Shown here: positions 2,175 to 55,291 of the stretch, piece by piece
How positions within the stretch are numbered: the stretch's first letter is position 1
How the letters are laid out: each line of letters begins with the position of its first letter
Source: Henricia sp. BOLD:AAB3569
Taxonomy: Eukaryota > Echinodermata > Asteroidea > Spinulosida > Echinasteridae
NCBI GenBank assembly: GCA_037783545.1
Contig: JBBELK010000058.1
Location: 1,922,001 to 1,986,000, forward strand
Reading direction: 5' to 3'
Length of the DNA stretch: 64,000 nt
Position numbers and translations under genes: made by a program
Notes under the pieces: model-generated
The model's input: only the letters and a program-made list of their open reading frames with translations
Told to the model about the DNA's origin: nothing
Databases searched by the model: none

Positions 2175-5100
2175 CTGCAACGACAAATTCATTGTAATGT
2201 GATCAACATTAATAAGTTTTAGATTGTCACGTCACCTATATGTACTCTGACATGGTGACATCAGGTTCAGCTTTCAGAGACAATGCCAAAACGATGTCGC
2301 CACGACTTGGACGCATGCGCAGGACCTCAAAATGACGTCATCGCGTCTTAATCCATATAGTCGGCGTGACAACCTAAAAGTGCCGTATGTTTTTAGTTAG
2401 GCTTGAAACAACTACGCTCTTGTGTAAACTATGAACATTTTCACAGTTCTACAGAGCGTAGTATTTGTCAAGACCCCACTCCCTCCCCTGATTTTTTTGT
2501 CACTACCATGAAATATCAACATTTTTCAGGGCATGTAAAGTCCTACGCAGCCTTTGACCCCCCCTCTCCATCCCCACTAACTTCCTATGCTTTGTAGGAC
2601 TGTGAACATTTTGACAACTTTGGCGGACCCTCAGCATCCAAAAATGTTTATGGGTGGGAATCAAGTTGGTGTGGTGGTACTTTCCTTGCCTTCCGTCTCT
2701 GTGGCCTAGGTTCGAATCCCGTCTGGGTCAGAATGCTGATTGGGTTTTCAGTATGTACTGGGTTTTAAAAACTGAGCATTTTTTTATTGTCTTCTCTTTA
2801 CGGATTTCTTCAAGCTTACAGGTTTCTTCAGGCTGAGAGAAGTAACATATTTTATTGACCTGTAATGCACCTATCAATTGTTTCCCCCACCCCTCCCCCC
2901 GCGCTGCCCCAACCCCAAGGTGGGGCTTTGGTCACGTTTTGTTATGCCCTAGGGTGGTGCATTTGACCCTTTTAAATAAAATTTTCTGTGGATTTGTATA
3001 CAAGACGCGCATGTTTTGTACCCGAGGGTGGGGATTTTGGTCACATAAATGTTGCCCCAGGGGTGGGGATTTTGGCACGCAAAAAGTGACAATCCCCACC
3101 TTTTTGTGACAATCCCCTGCCCTTTTGTGGCATTGCTGACACGTCTACTTTAAAACTCACCCGGTAGACAGACGCACTCATAACCAGCCACCATATCCCC
3201 GCATTCCAGGGCATTCTGGCAAGGGTTGCTTGCGCACTCGTTGATTTCGGTCTCACAGAGGGCACCCTCATAGCCGTCTGCACATGTACAGTTGAATCCT
3301 CCCAGGTAGTCGTTACAGACAGCACCGTTCTGACACTGACTTGGGATGCAGTTGTTGGCAATGGAGCAATTTTTACCTGCATAAAATTGCAAGGACGTCC
3401 ACGTATCAGGTTGCATTGATTTCCATTCATAAATACCTGAGACTGTTTGCAAATTCCCATTGGTCGAGAAAACATGACAGAGCAAGTTCAGGCGGGCGAC
3501 TATAGTTAACTAGACTAACCATAGTCGATCTAGATGTCACCCGAATGCTGCGTGGTGTGACTAGCTAGTCTGACTAGCTAGTCTGACTAGCTAGTCTGAC
3601 TAGCTAGTCTGACTAGCTAGTCTGACTAGCTAGTCAGACTAGCTAGTCAGACTAGCTAGTCAGACTAGCTAGTCTGACTAGCTAGTCTGACTAGAGGAAC
3701 CAAGCTCCGGGGGTGGGTTAGTCTAGTTAACTATAGTCGCCCAGCCGAACTTGCTCACAAAGGTCACAGATAATAATAGGCCTGCTTGGTTTTGAACACT
3801 ACCCAGTAGAAATTATTATGTTATACGGTGCATAATCACCACTGAAATGGCAACTAAATATCAAATTTGAGAAAATCTTGTGGGCCTCATCAGGACTTGA
3901 ACCCAAGACCTCTGACCTTCTGCTTAATGTGCAGACGTCCTACCAATTGAGCTATAAATCCAACTGGTGGTCTCAAAACACGGCATCATCCCTGAAATAA
4001 ATCCTCCATTCATACTTTAAAAATGGGGCAAGCCAGGCAGGGGTTTGGGTCGCGTCTTAAGCGATCTCTGGAAGGGGTGGTTATCTCATTGAATGGTGTA
4101 TCCCTCTGTAGGGCTTGTTAAGCTCACGTGATAACCAATCCCAATCAGTGAGGAACAACTGCAATACCATGTTTCGAGACCACCAGTTGGCTTCATAGCT
4201 CAATTGGTAGCGCGTCTGCACGTTAAGCAGAAGGTCTGTGGTTCGAATCCCGGTGGAGCCAAGTTGTTTTCACTGCATCTAGATTTCCCAAACCCATGGA
4301 CATTTGTCTGCATTTATCAGAGTAAATAAATAAATAAAAGATGTATTTTAAAAGATTTGTTTACCTTTATTGAACTCAATGGTACAATAGCATGTATAGT
4401 CCTGAATTCCATCTTCGCACGTCGCTCCGTTTAGACACGGATCGGGGCTGCAGTCGTCAATGTTCATACAGGTCAGAGCAGGGGGAGGAGTGATTTGGCG
4501 AAACCCTCCGGCACAGGAACAGCCAAAGTAACAGCTTTGAGAGGGCACCGGGCAGGGTGGTTCACAGACCTCCTCGGGGAAACAACCGCCGTGACTGATG
4601 TTGCTAGAAATCAAAGATAATGCGGTGGTTGAATGAACTTGGTTTTAATCTTATGAGAAGATCAAATGTCATGGTTGAACAGTTAAGTAACGACAAAGAC
4701 ATGCTAAAGCACTTTTCTACTTGCACTCATCAGAGCAAAACGCAAGAATGGCGTGGTGACGCTATCGACAATAGTATAATGCTAAATGCGGGAATGACGT
4801 GTTAAGAATGCTGAGCTCAACAACAGCAAGAAGCACGCTACTGTGCATGTGCAGTTAGATTACATAAGGGGTGTTCGAGATGCTGACACCGAGTAACACC
4901 AACTTACACCGGAGCGTTCTTTTAGCCATCACGTGATACACAAGTCTGCCCCGGTGGCAGCCACCACTACCCGAGCTCGCGGGCGGGTCTGTGGTGTAAA
5001 GCAAGGTGTAATGACGTAACCACGATTAGTAAAACATGGCGGACAGTTTGGAATCGTGACGCGAGTACAAAGAAAAACACAGACTTATGACATAAAATAG

Positions 5101-20100: not shown

Positions 20101-22754
20101 AACAACTTGTAAAAATTCAGTGCTGTTCAGTTGCAATGGGAGACTTTGAAATGCTTGCACCATGTTTACACTCGAATCAGCTACATGTACCAGTAAGATG
20201 GATACAGACCCAGCACTTTTATTGCGACCACAAAACTGAACATTTACCATTTACACTACACCTCAATTCAGCTTCAGCTGGACATTACCATTTACAAACT
20301 GCAAAAGTCACTGCTAATTGTGACCACACTGCATGCATGGATTTGTCAATTAAACCATTAAACCTACCACATGGTGGACACTGCCCCAAGGACACTCAAA
20401 CTGCCTAATCTGTATTCCGGTAGCGTTTACACTACAAGCTACCTTGATAATTGCAGGGTTCAATCCTACCCAAAAGGCGACTTGGAAAAGGCGACTTGGA
20501 AAAGGCGAATCATTCGACTTTTTCAATTCATCTTTTGCATTTACCCGGCTTCAACTCGCCCTTTTGGAAATTGCAGAGTTTGAAATGGGCCTTTGGTGGC
20601 GGCAAACATAAGATTAACAGTCCTACATGACCAGTCCACTATTGTTTGCATCACTCTTGAGCTACAGTGCTCGAGCTTAAAATGACGCAAATAATAGTGT
20701 ACTGATCACATGGGACTATAATGTCTTAAAAGTCTCCCATTGCGTGACAGTGCACCTTACAGTGTACTACATTTACAAACTACATGTAGCTGATTCATTA
20801 TGTAGAAAACAATTTAATGGCACAGTCTCGTCAGCAAGGCGCGCGCCAAATTCGTGCTAGAAAATACGCAGCTCCATAGCAAAGTAATGGAGCTGCGTGC
20901 CTTTAAAGGGGTTCGTGTATGAGATGTAGAGTATATAAACAAATCAGTGTTAACATGCAGATTTTACTGGTGCTTGTACAATGCTTGTGTTTACTTGCAT
21001 GTAAAAATAATGCATGACAAAACTATGCTGAAAGAAAACCTCCAAACAAAAGGCAAGACCAATGGTACATGTGTCAGTAGTTGTAAAAGAGAAGTATTTA
21101 TGGGACCCTTCCTTTTCTAAACTCCTTTTCCCTCCCCCTCCCAATCATCCCTTCCCCTTCCCCAACAGACACAGTGTTAACATGCAGATTTTACTGGTGC
21201 TTGTACAATGCTTGTGTTTACTTGCATGTAAAAATAATGCATGACAAAACTATGCTGAAAGAAAACCTCCAAACAAAAGGCAAGACCAATGGTACATGTG
21301 TCAGTAGTTGTAAAAGAGAAGTATTTATGGGACCCTTCCTTTTCTAAACTCCTTTTCCCTCCCCCTCCCAATCATCCCTTCCCCTTCCCCAACAGACACA
21401 GGAAGGGACAAACAGTGTGAAAGGAAATCGCAGTTCCTGTTGCGTGCTTAGTCAAGAACTGCAACTTCATAAACAGTAATCAAGCACAACTGCTAAGATT
21501 TGTAAGTTTCCGGGATTGCTACGTACTAGTACAACAAGAAAGTCTGCTAACACGTGGGGAATGGGAAAAGAACTTGAATTGAAACTATTCCCAAGATAAA
21601 ATGAGATGAAAATGTCCTTACAGTCATACATATCGAAACTAAATGTCAGTCGAGATTTGCGTGAATTTACAAGTCTCCAAAAGGTGCTTGACCGCTGAAT
21701 GCATAATTTTTCCGTGACTCAGTCAACTACAAAACTAAATGCCGAAAAAAGCGGGGAAAAAGTATTTTCTCGCAGAAAGATGCCATTTTGGACGGAAGAA
21801 AGTCACATTATGTTTGTCACCATTGCTTACTTTCAGTAAGATTTTTATCCTAAACTTTATGTAATAAGATTTTGTGAGCCGGAATGGATTGCTGCAATCC
21901 ATGTCCAGATATATGAAAGATGACTCGGGTTTGACTTGGGTGAATACTGCAGGTTTGACTCTTGGCCGTGGTACATGTGCCCTTGAGCAAGGCACTTAAC
22001 CGCAATTGCTCCATCCTTCGAAAGGGATGTAAATCTGTTGGTTCAGTGTGTTGTGATATGCACTTAAAAGATCCCAGAGCACTCTTTCGTGTGAACATAT
22101 TATGTACATGTAATCATTATTAGGGCCTATAATAAATAAATTGGATTTATTGCAATACTTGTCCCTAGACAACAACCAGCTCAGTGGTCAAATGGTTGAA
22201 GTGTCCACTCCAGAATTTAGGAGGCTGTGGGTTCAAATCCCATCTCAGCATGCTATGATGTAAGAAGTGTTTGCCAGAGTACATCTTTCTTGAGAAAGGA
22301 CCAAATATAAATTGCTCACATGGTTACATTGAGAAAGGCAATTGATTTAAAATTAACACCTTTTGCGACCTAGGCTTTTTCCAATTTATTCCCCTGGAGT
22401 GGGAGACTGCACTTGCAGTTTTGGTTCTACAGTATGTATTTCTCTGGGGCTGGAGACTTGATGACTAGTTTTGATTTCAAGTCGTAAATCAATCTTATTT
22501 TCCAAGTCCAGTCACAAGTAATTTTATCCAGAGTCAAGTCACAGGTCAAAAAACCAACTGACTTGACACTAAGCCAACAAGTTGAGAGACCAGCTCTGCC
22601 CTGGTAGTACTGGCCCATGGGCTAATTCTGTATTTAACCGCCCCCAAGACACTTAGAACTCCATATGCAGTTCCTGTCGGGAAGTGGTTAACCAACAACT
22701 GTACTTACCACAGATGAATAATGTGCTGCGAATAAGCCAGCAACCCCAAACCAT
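2052..22754 (-). CDS. LamG/EGF-repeat secreted or membrane protein, 5' part, 10 exons
   Basis: Ten minus-strand exons join with continuous phase: 22754-22709, 19662-19385, 12928-12713, 9692-9454, 8684-8591, 7629-7482, 6447-6249, 4603-4365, 3376-3161 and 2174-2052. Each junction has a GT donor and an AG acceptor. The joined frame gives about 599 residues: signal peptide 1 to about 27, LamG domain 1 about 28-225, LamG domain 2 about 230-390 (ending in the typical GCFEGLRF), a Cys-rich linker 414-452, then EGF-like domains at 458-490, 496-527, 534-565 and 572 onward. NIDD, EINE and DINE precede EGF 1, 3 and 4 and fit calcium binding. Families with this mix (crumbs, agrin, neurexin, eyes shut) act in adhesion, polarity or matrix. 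Two LamG domains ahead of the EGF array do not let me pick one. The 3' end lies beyond the left edge, so a membrane anchor cannot be judged. Confidence 0.88.
2676..2842 (+). mobile_element. SINE copy, family with GTTCGAATCCC box B
   Basis: Contains GGTTCGAATCCCGTCTGGGT (a tRNA box B), then GATTGGGTTTTCAGT, ACTGAGCATTTTT and the CTTCTCTTTACGGATTTCTTC tail. The same order of blocks recurs at 48386-48582 and, reversed, at 43341-43548. Confidence 0.65.
3161..3376 (-). CDS. Exon 9: EGF 2 and most of EGF 3
   Basis: 216 nt, phase 1 to 1, residues 487-558. Acceptor TTTATGCAG, donor GTGAGT. It has all six cysteines of EGF 2 (496-527) and five of EGF 3 (534 onward). EGF 3 is preceded by the calcium-binding signature EINE. 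Longer open frames over this DNA in other phases are shadows. Confidence 0.9.
3480..3756. mobile_element. Inverted-repeat element with a palindromic minisatellite core
   Basis: The arms start GAGCAAGTTC and continue with GCGACTATAGTTAACTAGAC; the right arm (to 3756) is the inverse, ending GAACTTGCTC. The interior is a tandem array (3559-3693). Related ends occur at 44236-44489, 44641 onward and 45985-46012. It lies in intron 7 of the LamG/EGF gene, between exons 8 and 9 (3377-4364 interval). Confidence 0.75.
3559..3693. repeat. Tandem array of a 13-bp palindrome-rich unit
   Basis: About ten units of GACTAGCTAGTCT in a row. Part-way through the phase flips to AGACTAGCTAGTC, so the array as a whole can also pair with itself. 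Confidence 0.9.
3890..3965 (-). repeat. tRNA-like sequence, left arm of an inverted pair
   Basis: On the minus strand it has box A-like TAGCTCAATTGGTAGGAC and box B-like GGGTTCAAGTCC. The cloverleaf is imperfect. It is mirrored by 4188-4263 and the inner flanks (CCAACTGGTGGTCTC / GAGACCACCAGTTGG) are also inverted, so both arms belong to one structure. Confidence 0.6.
4188..4263 (+). repeat. tRNA-like sequence, right arm of the inverted pair
   Basis: It has an acceptor-like stem GGCTTCA/TGGAGCC, box A GCTCAATTGGTAGC, an anticodon loop position that would read GTT, and box B GGTTCGAATCC. D-stem and T-stem pairs are broken, so I call it tRNA-derived rather than a working tRNA-Asn. Confidence 0.55.
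4365..4603 (-). CDS. Exon 8: Cys-rich linker and EGF 1
   Basis: 239 nt, phase 2 to 1, residues 407-486. Acceptor GATTTCTAG, donor GTAAAC. The linker has cysteines at 414, 420, 424, 431, 435, 437 and 452. EGF 1 starts at C458 after NIDD and its sixth cysteine (C490) comes from exon 9. The linker may be a degenerate EGF. Confidence 0.87.
4865..5379. mobile_element. TIR element, 515 bp, intact (empty) copy
   Basis: Ends are GTTCGAGATGCTGACACC and, inverted, GGTGTAAGCATCTCGAAC-type sequence followed by GCCCCTA. The interior contains AAAACATGGCGGACAGTTTG. It aligns along its length with 54636-55291 but lacks the F1 MITE found there. Confidence 0.7.
6249..6447 (-). CDS. Exon 7: end of LamG 2
   Basis: 199 nt, phase 1 to 2, residues 341-406. 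Acceptor TTTAAACAG, donor GTAAGT. LMIGGVQD followed by LRGCFEGLRF is the canonical end of a LamG domain, with its last cysteine. Confidence 0.88.
7482..7629 (-). CDS. Exon 6: LamG 2, third block
   Basis: 148 nt, phase 0 to 1, residues 292-340. Acceptor TATACTAG, donor GTAAGT. The motif FNDGAWKYIRVTREGRDAIL matches the conserved LamG 'DG-WH-V-V-R-G' block. Confidence 0.88.
7742..7945 (+). mobile_element. tRNA-headed SINE
   Basis: Box A-like TAGTGGTCTAGTGGATTA and box B-like GGGTTTGAATCCC are spaced as in a tRNA. A body with TTTCTTGAGCAAGGTACTTT and ACTGTAGGAGTAAATGGGTA follows. It lies just upstream of exon 6 on the opposite strand. Confidence 0.6.
7950..8160. repeat. Short tandem repeat of an 18-bp GAGCTC-containing unit plus relatives
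   Basis: GGGGTCGAACACCGAGCT recurs about four times between 7973 and 8035, followed by looser GATCCCGAGCTCGGGATC palindromes at 8020-8035 and 8131-8152. It may be part of a MITE ending near 8390. Confidence 0.6.
8591..8684 (-). CDS. Exon 5: LamG 2, second strand block
   Basis: 94 nt, phase 2 to 0, residues 260-291. Acceptor CTCATTCCAG, donor GTTGGT. It reads NGMLFYFGGPAYLTVYMVQG, the LamG 'G-L-Y-GG ... L-V-L' core, and continues exon 4 directly. Confidence 0.85.
8830..9319. mobile_element. Long hairpin MITE, copy 1
   Basis: The arms run from AACTCCTCAAAAA to the inverse TTTTTTTGAGGAGTTTA. Inner blocks TTGGTATCATTGGAAAGCCC, AATTGGGGGATGTGCAGTA and GTGAAATGTCACAAAAT are all present inverted, so the two halves pair over almost the whole 490 bp. 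A second copy is at 49676-50166. Confidence 0.8.
9454..9692 (-). CDS. Exon 4: end of LamG 1, start of LamG 2
   Basis: 239 nt, phase 0 to 2, residues 181-259. Acceptor CCATTCAG, donor GTAAGT. GYLVTCINYIR and a following Cys close LamG 1. SSNGFLSIEHPL followed by RTILSLRFRTT opens LamG 2. Confidence 0.87.
9927..10163. mobile_element. Hairpin element with a CT-rich loop
   Basis: The left arm block TTTGGTCTGTAATGCGCAGC plus GCGCCCTCTGGACTGGTGG is repeated inverted at 10086-10140. The loop holds a (TC)n tract near 10035-10050. It lies between exons 3 and 4. Confidence 0.7.
10300..11200. other. Intron 3 of the LamG/EGF gene, unresolved part
   Basis: AT-rich single-copy-looking sequence with no coding exon, RNA gene or clear repeat that I can support. 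Confidence 0.5.
11201..11445. mobile_element. TTAA element family F3, 3'-truncated copy
   Basis: TTAA at 11201-11204 is followed by AGGAGCGTGTCCAGATC, then the family body (GAGATTTTGATACATATCAT, TTTTGTAAACTAATTT). The right end is lost. Confidence 0.6.
11561..11812 (-). mobile_element. tRNA-headed SINE, reversed
   Basis: On the minus strand a head reading GTGCCATGGCCGAGTGGTTA (a Leu/Ser-type box A) is followed by a box B-like GGTTCAATTCTGGCC and the body CCTTGGGCAAGGCACTTTGC. It lies in intron 3 of the LamG/EGF gene. Confidence 0.6.
12253..12306. repeat. G-rich low-complexity tract
   Basis: Nearly uninterrupted G with a few A and T. It inflates a plus-strand open frame (12203-12943) that overlaps exon 3 in antisense. 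Confidence 0.9.
12713..12928 (-). CDS. Exon 3: middle of LamG 1
   Basis: 216 nt, phase 0 to 0, residues 109-180. Acceptor TTAAACAG, donor GTAGGT. It contains a typical LamG stretch: NTTYTVVIFN, then a central loop, then ITQLMGAVFVGGYRDV. The V-F-V-G-G strand is the conserved late LamG motif. Confidence 0.87.
13510..13776. mobile_element. TIR element, about 267 bp
   Basis: The ends TATATGGGTCATTCTATAAA and, inverted, TTTATAGAATGACCCATATA continue as TTGGGGTC and TGACATTTTTCTGTCCC-type arms. TA-type flanks suggest a Tc1/mariner MITE. Confidence 0.7.
13777..15955. other. Intron 2 of the LamG/EGF gene, unresolved part
   Basis: No supported exon. Palindromic ACATGTAC words cluster near 14708-14735. 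Short open frames at 14586-15025 have no domain. Confidence 0.5.
15956..16097. mobile_element. TTAA MITE family F1, copy a
   Basis: TTAA at both ends. The arms contain CAGGCTCGTCAGCAATGCGC and GTGCCACGAAATACGCAGCT, with the inverse on the other side, giving an almost perfect hairpin of about 65 bp per arm. Confidence 0.8.
16283..16483. mobile_element. Hairpin MITE, about 200 bp
   Basis: The left arm AATAAACCCTTTCATGGTTA is repeated inverted, ending TAACCGTGAAAGGGTTTATT. The arms also share ACGCGTTGC(CG/TG)TGTGCGTGC-like, CpG-rich inner blocks. The loop is short. Confidence 0.75.
17138..17195. repeat. Imperfect GGATCAGA(A/T)C tandem repeat
   Basis: CAGATCTGGATCAGATCTGG and close variants are repeated about five times. 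Confidence 0.75.
17229..17575. mobile_element. TTAA element family F3, reversed and truncated copy
   Basis: TTAA then AGGAGCATGACCAGATG at the left. The body is the reverse of the other F3 copies (AAAATATACGGACTGAGAGC, TGATACGGTATCAAAATGTC). The open frame at 17202-17549 lies inside it and is not a gene. Confidence 0.6.
17818..18085. mobile_element. Inverted-repeat element with TTTACACTCGAATCGGC ends
   Basis: GCGTTTACACTCGAATCGGC at the left and CGAATCGAGTGTAAACGGGG at the right. A decayed relative lies at about 20155-20590 with the same GTTTACACTCGAATC start and internal CGACCACAAAACTGAACATT. Confidence 0.6.
18410..18673. mobile_element. MITE with GGGCCAAATTTCATAG ends, copy 1
   Basis: GGGCCAAATTTCATAGG at the left and, inverted, CTATGAAATTGGGCCC at the right. 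The interior has CTTAA-rich hairpin blocks. Related copies are at 43977-44194 and 63520-63763. Confidence 0.7.
18680..19170. other. Intron 2, region of imperfect GAAGATTAGTTAATC-type inverted repeats
   Basis: Repeated AATGAAGA / TCTTCATT and GATTAACTAATC blocks suggest an old inverted-repeat element, but no clean ends are visible. Confidence 0.4.
19385..19662 (-). CDS. Exon 2: end of signal peptide, first half of LamG 1
   Basis: Acceptor TTTTACAG precedes 19662 and donor GTACGT follows 19385. It starts in phase 1 and ends in phase 0, residues 16-108. The segment LVLEFQFRYCNDHGMLLYQD followed by a YLEW strand is the usual LamG beta-sandwich start (an F-R, G-LLY pattern). Confidence 0.88.
20814..20906. 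mobile_element. TTAA MITE family F1, copy b, internal deletion
   Basis: TTAA-bounded; it keeps the left arm (CTCGTCAGCAAGGCGCGCGC) but most of the right arm is missing. Confidence 0.7.
20945..21401. repeat. Perfect tandem duplication, unit 227 bp
   Basis: The unit starts CAGTGTTAACATGCAGATTT and ends with CCCCAACAGACA. By eye the two copies (20945-21171 and 21172-21398) are identical. The duplication lies in the first intron of the LamG/EGF gene. Confidence 0.92.
21910..22090 (+). mobile_element. SINE copy, same family as 53241-53502
   Basis: CCTTGAGCAAGGCACTTAAC, AAAGGGATGTAAATCTGTTG and AAAAGATCCCAGAGCACTCT appear in the order expected for the reverse of the 53 kb copy. Confidence 0.65.
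22160..22350 (+). mobile_element. tRNA-headed SINE
   Basis: Box A-like AGCTCAGTGGTCAAATGGTT and box B GGGTTCAAATCCC, followed by a body with TCTTTCTTGAGAAAGGACC. Confidence 0.55.
22709..22754 (-). CDS. Exon 1: start codon and signal peptide
   Basis: ATG at 22754-22752 opens MVWGCWLIRSTLFIC and the exon ends at donor GTAAGTAC (22708-22701), phase 1. Joined to exon 2 the hydrophobic run continues as AIFIGACFCQS, which makes a classic signal peptide cut near Q26-S27. This join is the reason for choosing this start over the in-frame ATG just upstream of exon 2. Confidence 0.85.
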
Positions 22755-52698: not shown

Positions 52699-53240
52699 GT
52701 TGGTGTGGGAATCAGGACTTCAAATATATACACATTACTTGAACCTCATAAAAGTCTAACAATTTTCTCACAGTGAAAAACAATGTAACATGACAAGAAA
52801 AATAAAATAAAAGGCAATTTTAGTGAGACATGCTGCCTTTTGAAGTGGAAATGTTGTATCGTATGACATATGATATTAAACATGTATTTATCCTGGTGTT
52901 GGCGTACAAGTGGTTGCACGAAATCTTCGCGCTAGTCTATGAAGAGTGCAAACACCTTTCGGCACGGCTGTCAAAATGGCGAGTACCACATTGAAACATT
53001 GCGCGGATTTAATTAGAGTTATGATATTAGAACATGTCAATTGTATGATCTGCAGAGTTTAGAAGAATCTTTGAAGAATGTTGGTTTACTACTAGCCTGC
53101 GAAAATGTCAGCTCCATGTTACCATTGCTATATCAATACTTTGAGTAAGGTTTTTCTCGTAAACTCGTGAAGTAAAATTTTAAATAATACAACTCTGAAA
53201 AGATGAAGCTTTCAGAGTCTTCCACCTAAACATCGAGATA

Positions 53241-53502
53241 CATAGGTGGGTGGCGCCAATAGCAGTTGATGGCCAGAGACACTGGGGAATAATCCCCCAA
53301 CTCTTCACGAAAGAATGCTCTGGGATCTTTTAACATCTTTTAAGACTGGACCAACGGTTTTACATCCCTTCCGATTGAGCAAGTGTGTTTAAGTGCCTTG
53401 CTCAAGGGCGCAGGTACCCCAGCCGGGTATCGAACCCGCAACCCCAAGTTTTCATCCGAGTATTGCGAGTCAGTGACCTAAATCACTCGGCCACGGTACC
53501 CC
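53241..53502 (-). mobile_element. tRNA-Leu/Ser-like headed SINE, well preserved
   Basis: The minus strand begins GGGTACCGTGGCCGAGTGAT, has box B GCGGGTTCGATACCC and closes the tRNA part with GGGGTACC, complementary to the start. The body carries CCTTGAGCAAGGCACTTAAA and AAAGATCCCAGAGCATTCTT. It lies 164 bp upstream of the prepropeptide start codon. Confidence 0.7.
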
Positions 53503-53665
53503 AATGATACATTGGGCCTTTAATTAGCGCTCAAACATGAGTCTAGCTGTTTTAACTTTTGATCCAACTGAAATGTTTGAATTCTTGCTATTACACAGAT
53601 CGAACCATCCAACTACATTTCAACTTTCACTGGGTGCTTATCAACGACCAATCGGCAGCTGCATC

Positions 53666-54034
53666 ATGCATATTCAGAGCGTCACGTGTTTCCTGATCGG
53701 AACCCTATTGGCTGGTCTTATATCCGTCAGTATCTCGTGGCCAATGGAAGATGACAATGACGTTGTCGGGGCAACTGACATGCGCAATAGCCCCTACTAT
53801 CCAGCCGCGCTGGAGGCTGCGGTCGACAAGTTAGTCTCAGCTCAAGACGCTGTCGAAGCGGGCGATCACATATCGATGGAGCGGCTGGCATTGCAACTAC
53901 TGGAAGCAAATAGAGCGAATGAAGGATTCCGACGGGACTCCAGACAACCGAATTTCAGGCCGCGCAAACCCCTGTGCCAGGGTAACACGTGCAATCCGAG
54001 GGGGTGGAAGCGGAGCTGGGATCATCGCCGCTAA
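53666..54034 (+). CDS. Candidate neuropeptide/peptide-hormone precursor, 122 aa
   Basis: I do not recognise the family. The chosen ATG (53666) begins a signal peptide, MHIQSVTCFLIGTLLAGLIS, with likely cleavage after VSIS-24. The frame is open further upstream to 53537, but that extension is not signal-like. Residues 25-88 are an acidic spacer with a predicted helix (about 47-85). R89-R90 is a dibasic site. R93 precedes Q94, which could form pyroglutamate. Residues 94-114 are basic and end CQGNTCNPRGW, with a C104-x4-C109 ring; K115-R116 then follows, and the tail SWDHRR ends in Arg-Arg. This is the usual prohormone layout with the active peptide near the C terminus. A C-x4-C ring also occurs in vasopressin/oxytocin, urotensin II and apela, but no neurophysin domain or other homologous feature is seen. 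A basic antimicrobial peptide is an alternative. It appears to be single-exon; a 5' noncoding exon is possible. Confidence 0.6.
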   Translation: MHIQSVTCFLIGTLLAGLISVSISWPMEDDNDVVGATDMRNSPYYPAALEAAVDKLVSAQDAVEAGDHISMERLALQLLEANRANEGFRRDSRQPNFRPRKPLCQGNTCNPRGWKRSWDHRR

Positions 54035-54280
54035 TGTGCGACTGGTGTTAAAGACTAGATCTCGTCTTTTGAGTAGGGGAGCTTGTTTCAGTCGACGGTT
54101 GATATGCTGTATGTACGTCAGTACAGTGCATGCAAATTGAACAGTGTGAATTACTACTTATTATGAGAATACGATTAAGGTGCAAAAGGGGTGGGCTCGG
54201 CTTAACACATGATTTGTCTCGGCGAAACACGCGTTTTAACGCGTTTTCTCGCGTTTCAGCTCAGTCCATTGTGCCTTATA

Positions 54281-54286
54281 AATAAA
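54281..54286 (+). terminator. Poly(A) signal AATAAA downstream of the prepropeptide ORF
   Basis: AATAAA lies about 245 nt after the stop codon of the 122-residue precursor. It is the first canonical signal on that strand and is at a sensible distance for a short 3' UTR. Confidence 0.45.
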
Positions 54287-54635
54287 AAGACTTGGTATAC
54301 CACGTGTCTCCCAATCAATCATCCCCAATAACGATAGTAATACGTCCCCCAATGTGCAAATCTGAAATTTAAAATGGTCAAGAGGTTTTTTTGCAAACCG
54401 TTTTCGCGTTGTTTCGTATTTGAAACATTGTTCAAGTATAAAAGCCCATTTGCGTCTTTAAATTACGCAAACATTTTAAAGAATTTTTCAAATGAATATG
54501 ATTGATTTTTATCATAATGCAGTATAAATAATGTAATCTTCCTTGTGATAGACCCATCGCACGGGCGGCCATGACAGAGGGCAGTCACACTGTCACCCTG
54601 CATCATGCACGAGTATAGGCACTTTGTGGATCTTA

Positions 54636-55291
54636 TAGGGGCGTTGGAGATGCTTACACCGTGTTTACACCAACTTACACCGGAGCGTTCTTTTAAAGGC
54701 ACAGGCTCGTCGGAAATGCGCGCGCGCCAAATTCGTGCCACGAAATACGCAGCTCCATGCCTTTGCTATGAAGCTGCGTATTTCGAGGCACAAATTTGGC
54801 GTGCGCGCATTGCTGACGAGCCTGTGCCTTTAACCATCACATGACACACGAGTCTGTCCCGCGGCGGTGGCAGCCACCACTGCCCGAGCTCGCGGCAGCA
54901 GGGTCTCTGGTGTAAGGCTCGGTGTAATTACGTCACCTAGTAACCGTGTGGAAGTTGCGAGGAGTAAAACATGGCGGACAGTTTGTAATCGCGACGTGAG
55001 TACGAAGAAAAACACAGATTTATGATACAAATTTGCTTAATCAGTAGATGTCTGTGGGCATTGACAAAAAGTTTGTTATGGTACAATTTGGACAACAAAC
55101 TTCGCGTCGCGCCGGGTTAATTTTTCCTCGTGAGTCAAACGATGATAGTGTTTATAAAAGCCCCGCCTGGCAACAACCTTTGACCTGTGTTCCCAGAATT
55201 CAAAGCGAAACCCCGTGGCGTTTTGCATCTTCTGTTGCTTTCCCTGGTGTAAACCCTGTGTTACACGGTGTAAGCATCTCGAACGCCCCTA
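54636..55291. mobile_element. TIR element, second copy, interrupted by an F1 MITE
   Basis: The ends TAGGGGCGTTGGAGATGC and GCATCTCGAACGCCCCTA are inverted, with TA at each edge. The interior matches 4865-5379, including AAAACATGGCGGACAGTTTG. A TTAA-flanked F1 element sits at 54693-54833. Confidence 0.75.
54693..54833. mobile_element. TTAA MITE family F1, copy h, inserted in the 54636-55291 element
   Basis: Full-length and TTAA-bounded. The related element at 4865-5379 has the unoccupied site TTTTAGCC at 4920-4927. Confidence 0.85.

Follow-up and report, generated by a model that had tools for sequence, protein, structure and literature searches.

A probable single-peptide member of the RGW (Arnp22/Arnp23) family of starfish neuropeptide precursors in the Henricia genome

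The window, that is the whole 64-kb stretch of DNA analysed here, carries on its plus strand an intact open reading frame (ORF) of 122 residues closed by a TAA, whose parts and neighbours are listed in Table 1. The initial annotation had described this ORF as a possible new cyclic peptide-hormone precursor. Its coordinates were exact, and the layout was found as described, with R89-R90, R93, Q94, C104, C109, W114 and K115-R116 all in their places. From the sequence, the protein runs from a signal-like N-terminus through an acidic spacer to RR, a C-x4-C-NPRGW block and KR. Residues 5-24 are hydrophobic, with 11-residue hydropathy windows that reach 2.48. The signal peptide was called from hydropathy, and the methionine at 53666 was judged by eye to be its start, in a reading frame that stays open upstream to 53528 and contains a longer alternative start at 53537. 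An AlphaFold2 single-sequence model of the ORF was of low confidence (mean pLDDT 56.2) and placed helices at residues 45-64 and 71-91, mainly in the spacer, and short strands at residues 103-105 and 108-110, flanking the C-x4-C ring; a model of such low confidence supports nothing by itself.

Table 1. Features of the precursor locus (window coordinates)
Feature	Position	Strand	Remarks
Dispersed SINE-like repeat, outside the gene	53203..53504	.	About 160 nt separate its end from the ORF downstream
Possible 5' UTR start of the coding exon	53599..53665	+	Candidate 3' splice site before 53599, ttgctattacacag followed by A; inferred
Precursor coding sequence, including TAA	53666..54034	+	122 residues
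Putative signal peptide	53666..53737	+	About residues 1-24, by hydropathy; cleavage after SIS inferred
Acidic spacer	53738..53929	+	Residues 25-88 (64 aa), net charge -9
Arg-Arg processing site	53930..53935	+	Residues 89-90
Predicted mature 24-residue peptide	53936..54007	+	DSRQPNFRPRKPLCQGNTCNPRGW; residues 91-114, net charge +4
Alternative 21-residue peptide	from 53945	+	Starts at Q94 after R-D-S-R, ends at residue 114
C104-x4-C109 ring	53975..53992	+	C104-QGNT-C109; predicted intramolecular disulphide
Lys-Arg processing site	54008..54013	+	Residues 115-116
C-terminal tail	54014..54031	+	SWDHRR, residues 117-122
Candidate AATAAA poly(A) signal	54281..54286	+	247 nt past the stop

The gene had been described as having a single exon. 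The coding frame is indeed one exon, and the candidate 3' splice site ahead of it (13 of 20 positions are pyrimidines and CAG stands ahead of the exon, by simple inspection) leaves room for a separate 5' UTR exon. If this site is used, that exon would possibly lie upstream, beyond the SINE-like repeat. The poly(A) signal said to support expression is present, at 247 rather than 245 nt, and because of the local AT content an AATAAA at this distance is weak evidence. The ORF has a GC content of 55%, compared with 43% upstream and 41% downstream, and among windows of 369 nt across the 64 kb, 0.9% equal it in GC richness. When the ORF was used to query its own genome (740.7 Mb), a single candidate was returned and the single match was the ORF itself, and residues 88-122 queried alone likewise had themselves as the only match. 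Besides the ORF, a search of the genome with positions 53100-54900 listed matches for the SINE-like repeat and for an inverted repeat at about 54693-54840, plus short, weak ones inside the SINE-like repeat and around 54550-54630. The SINE-like repeat has at least 39 other copies with 83-88% identity, the best 40 of 12562 first-look candidates having been scored. The arms of the inverted repeat (54693-54840) match one another as well as several further genomic sites, and the element resembles a small MITE.

The layout was compared with chance expectation by means of a precursor grammar consisting of a signal-like start, a dibasic site, two cysteines and a further dibasic site, with exactly two cysteines after the signal. 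This grammar, which is loose and was composed after the ORF had been seen, was matched by one of the 94 ATG starts of 70-250 residues in the window (nested starts counted separately), namely this ORF. Control DNA from the same genome, 200 kb made up of 20 stretches on three contigs, gave no match among 309 ATG starts, and when this control was shuffled 20 times by single bases, none of the 1979 starts matched. For the motif C-x4-C-N-x-RGW-[KR]2 the expectation is 1.9e-6 per window and 0.02 per genome. A looser motif that allows 0-6 residues after the ring is expected 2.6e-4 times per window and about three times per genome, and is therefore insufficient in a whole-genome search without the surrounding ORF. 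The window contains 10 ATG ORFs of at least 122 residues, compared with a mean of 2.45 in 40 dinucleotide shuffles, and when the ORF's own DNA was shuffled the frame stayed open in 204 of 20000 cases. ORF length alone is the weaker evidence and is not decisive; the precursor grammar is the stronger.

There is good support for reading the ORF as an echinoderm precursor of a cyclic, secreted C-x4-C peptide. Following the established neuropeptide pathway, the product would enter the ER via the secretory pathway and lose its signal peptide, a disulphide between C104 and C109 would close the ring, prohormone convertases would cut at RR and KR, and a carboxypeptidase would trim the basic residues. 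Neurons would then release a cyclic peptide of 24 residues, or a pyroglutamyl form of 21, with a free C-terminal RGW. The acidic spacer would balance the basic peptide, and the ring and the RGW end are likely to be the receptor-binding parts, with the receptor presumably a GPCR. Since there is no Gly ahead of K115-R116, the peptide would not be amidated. A further basic pair, RK at 100-101, has Pro next to it, and Pro after a dibasic pair usually blocks cleavage. The Gln proposed to become pyroglutamate is present at residue 94, directly preceded by the single Arg R93 (in R-D-S-R) and not by the RR. R-D-S-R is a minimal furin-type site, and a pyroglutamyl 21-mer is possible; the peptide from RR to KR has 24 residues, the same length as a published starfish peptide, Arn22a, and by this analogy argues at least equally for an unmodified 24-mer.

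The initial annotation knew of no peptide that this sequence matched, a statement that did not hold up, since Arnp22 and Arnp23 have been described in print (PMC4772807) as having just this combination, a C-x4-C ring and a C-terminal RGW that precedes a dibasic site. In that paper, Semmens et al. (2016) present both as uncharacterised candidate neuropeptides of Asterias rubens without known relatives, taken from a starfish radial nerve transcriptome. Arnp22 (KT601739) is described there as a protein of 157 residues with a 24-residue signal, dibasic sites at 86/87, 112/113, 126/127, 136/137 and 151/152, and two peptides, Arn22a of 24 and Arn22b of 23 residues, each with C-x4-C and each ending in NQRGW (PMC4772807). 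Arnp23 (KT601740) has 118 residues and gives Arn23a and Arn23b, which have C-x4-C, an RGW end and dibasic bounds, and the authors suggest that RGW may be critical (PMC4772807). The exact strings of the Henricia peptide had no match in the literature text searched. NQRGW was matched in PMC4772807 and in PMC7801262, whose title marks it as a COVID-19 survey, and the other literature matches hold RGWKR or RGWRR and appear unrelated, judging by title. The earlier observation holds and was read well, and the cyclic-peptide precursor stands; the claim that it is new is lessened by the 2016 description. The peptide type has been known as a candidate neuropeptide since that year, and the single peptide copy is the one unusual feature of the ORF.

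On the basis of motif, length and layout, with Arnp22 and Arnp23 compared through their published description, we consider the ORF very likely to belong to the Arnp22/Arnp23 ("RGW") neuropeptide family, as a member with a single peptide. It has the two cysteines four residues apart, a C-terminal RGW directly before a dibasic site (NPRGW-KR, where Arnp22 has NQRGW), and the sequence of signal (by hydropathy), spacer and dibasic-bounded peptide. Its layout is close to that of the first half of Arnp22, with a signal of about 24 residues against 24, a spacer of 64 against 61 and hence three residues longer, a first dibasic site at 89/90 against 86/87, a peptide of 24 residues in both, and the next dibasic site at 115/116 against 112/113. 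By description, the ORF differs from Arnp22 in having 122 rather than 157 residues, one peptide rather than two, and NPRGW in place of NQRGW. With Arnp23 it shares the C-x4-C ring, the C-terminal RGW and a tail of six residues behind the last dibasic site, whereas the Arnp23 spacer is short (26 residues) and its two peptides have 22 and 34 residues.

The family feature that the ORF lacks is the second peptide. No second C-x4-C-x(0-6)-RGW was present in the six frames of the 64-kb window, and the 264 nt past the stop, read in three frames, contain no RGW. Because peptide copy number varies within echinoderm neuropeptide families (PMC5627052), we treated the presence of two peptides as variable and not as defining. 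The single copy, together with the repeat that ends about 160 nt upstream, would also suit the remnant of a two-peptide Arnp22-type gene that is decaying or has lost its expression; this we regard as highly improbable, as the frame, both dibasic sites, both cysteines and the RGW are all intact and the searches just described found no trace of a second peptide. An intact family member may be an Arnp22 orthologue minus the second peptide, a third paralogue, or a pre-duplication form. The more specific proposal of a third, single-peptide RGW type, perhaps a pre-duplication form, in which pyroglutamate would arise by cleavage after R-D-S-R, is tentative and in our view rather doubtful. Searches of the genome with the ORF and with residues 88-122 found no second member of the RGW family. 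A starfish might be expected to carry both Arnp22- and Arnp23-type genes, and the lone match counts against membership. This absence is weak evidence, because more divergent paralogues could be missed; the same search tool did find a 20-mer (ArSS2) that was 85% identical.

A cationic antimicrobial peptide could have a similar architecture, in which a signal and an acidic prosegment precede a basic, disulphide-looped peptide freed by a furin-type enzyme, and the charges of the prosegment (-9) and of the two-cysteine peptide (+4) agree with it. The charge is nevertheless modest, the combination of C-x4-C and RGW before a dibasic site is of a type that came from a starfish radial nerve transcriptome, and a relative is reported in the radial nerve cord proteome (PMC9971248), so that we consider an antimicrobial function very unlikely.

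The six-residue C-x4-C ring had also drawn comparison with vasopressin/oxytocin, urotensin II and apela, a likeness for which ring size is the sole basis. The PRG that comes after the ring is reminiscent of vasopressin, and the C-N there of insect CNMamide. Asterotocin and other vasopressin/oxytocin-type (VP/OT-type) precursors share the ring with the ORF, but in the published accounts they have an amidated peptide behind the signal and then neurophysin, and the ORF has neither. The absence of a neurophysin domain noted earlier was borne out by a Pfam search of the ORF, which gave no family at the cut-off, the one family listed being DUF4398 (E 0.04). A VP/OT-type assignment defined by neurophysin and an amidated C-x4-C-P-x-G peptide after the signal therefore fails. 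The peptide of the ORF lies near the C-terminus with no amidation Gly before KR, the genome carries separate neurophysin matches on another contig, and the RGW family accounts for more residues than any of these peptides; a divergent relative of vasopressin/oxytocin, urotensin II, apela or CNMamide is scarcely credible. Somatostatin/allatostatin-C, MCH, CCHamide, CNMamide, VP/OT, urotensin II and apela types were all rejected, the likeness lying in ring size or in isolated motifs. In echinoderms, MCH and SS types are described with a larger ring and other motifs (PMC4772807, PMC7536072). A PDB search of the ORF gave one match, to trypsin (E 1.2), which was taken as chance, and a sigma-70 promoter scan was set aside as inapplicable to an animal.

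The separate neurophysin-domain matches, two in number (L002 and L003), exceed the Pfam cut-off and lie about 234 kb apart on G000:C772. The better of them has a TAG inside the matched frame, and no VP/OT nonapeptide was read next to either. A second VP/OT-type gene could account for these matches, as could a pseudogene or an intron.

The RGW precursors may be specific to Asteroidea. According to Zandawala et al. (2017), Arnp21-24 were not found in brittle stars, and S. purpuratus and A. japonicus yielded no orthologues, a pattern that suggests precursors specific to Asteroidea (PMC5627052). Occurrence of the ORF in this class is indicated indirectly, by the strand pattern of the mitochondrial DNA and by an ArSS2 orthologue of the FWK type. 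The mitochondrial contig (C2104, 16,221 bp) has COX1, ND4L and COX2 in order on one strand, an order that is echinoderm, and on the opposite strand ND1 and a second proton-pumping NADH subunit, which was taken to be ND2. This strand pattern is in line with the published 4.6 kb inversion, containing ND1 and ND2, that separates starfish from sea urchins; by mitochondrial gene order, starfish group with brittle stars (PMC3308324), so that the mitochondrial pattern by itself would also suit a brittle star. COX1 also occurs three times on G000:C955 (at 7592, 23813 and 40034) at a spacing of exactly 16,221 bp, the length of C2104, and this triple occurrence is probably an assembly artefact. The 20-residue ArSS2 of A. 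rubens, used as a query, matched one place in the genome with 85% identity over 20 residues (L031, G000:C497:2348546-2348605, minus strand), which reads KR-RSKNAKCMADFWKGRGLVNC-stop and has the FWK motif with KR before it. FWK is reported in the SS-type peptide of A. rubens and A. planci, and I replaces F in the other echinoderms analysed (PMC8851493). On both lines of evidence together, the genome is most likely that of a starfish.

One of the neuropeptides that the radial nerve cord of crown-of-thorns starfish is reported to contain is ApNp22-like (PMC9971248), which is listed together with ApNp23-like as raised in the sensory tentacles of females (PMC9759900); the link of both to the Arnp22 and Arnp23 precursors is by name. 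The tie between the ORF and a family with such members is of possible reproductive interest. The portions of the literature examined name neither a receptor for RGW peptides nor relatives of them outside Asteroidea. With a single-copy member, the residues that persist narrow to C-x4-C and N-x-RGW, and one clean peptide becomes available for receptor deorphanisation. Should the doubtful third, single-peptide type prove true, the ring and RGW could be tested as the minimal active unit of an apparently starfish-confined family.

Pfam scans of stretches of the window covered the plus strand at 49-64 kb in three frames and at 39-49.5 kb in one frame, and the minus strand at 1-15, 15-30 and 40-55 kb in three frames each; the only domains found were of the EGF type, near 2.0-3.4 kb on the minus strand. 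These EGF matches, at 2050-2136 and 3261-3356 (coordinates derived from residue numbers), are probably exons of a multi-EGF protein. Two tandem units of 227 bp, matching each other at 100%, occupy positions 20945-21401 of the window and represent either a very recent duplication or an assembly artefact.
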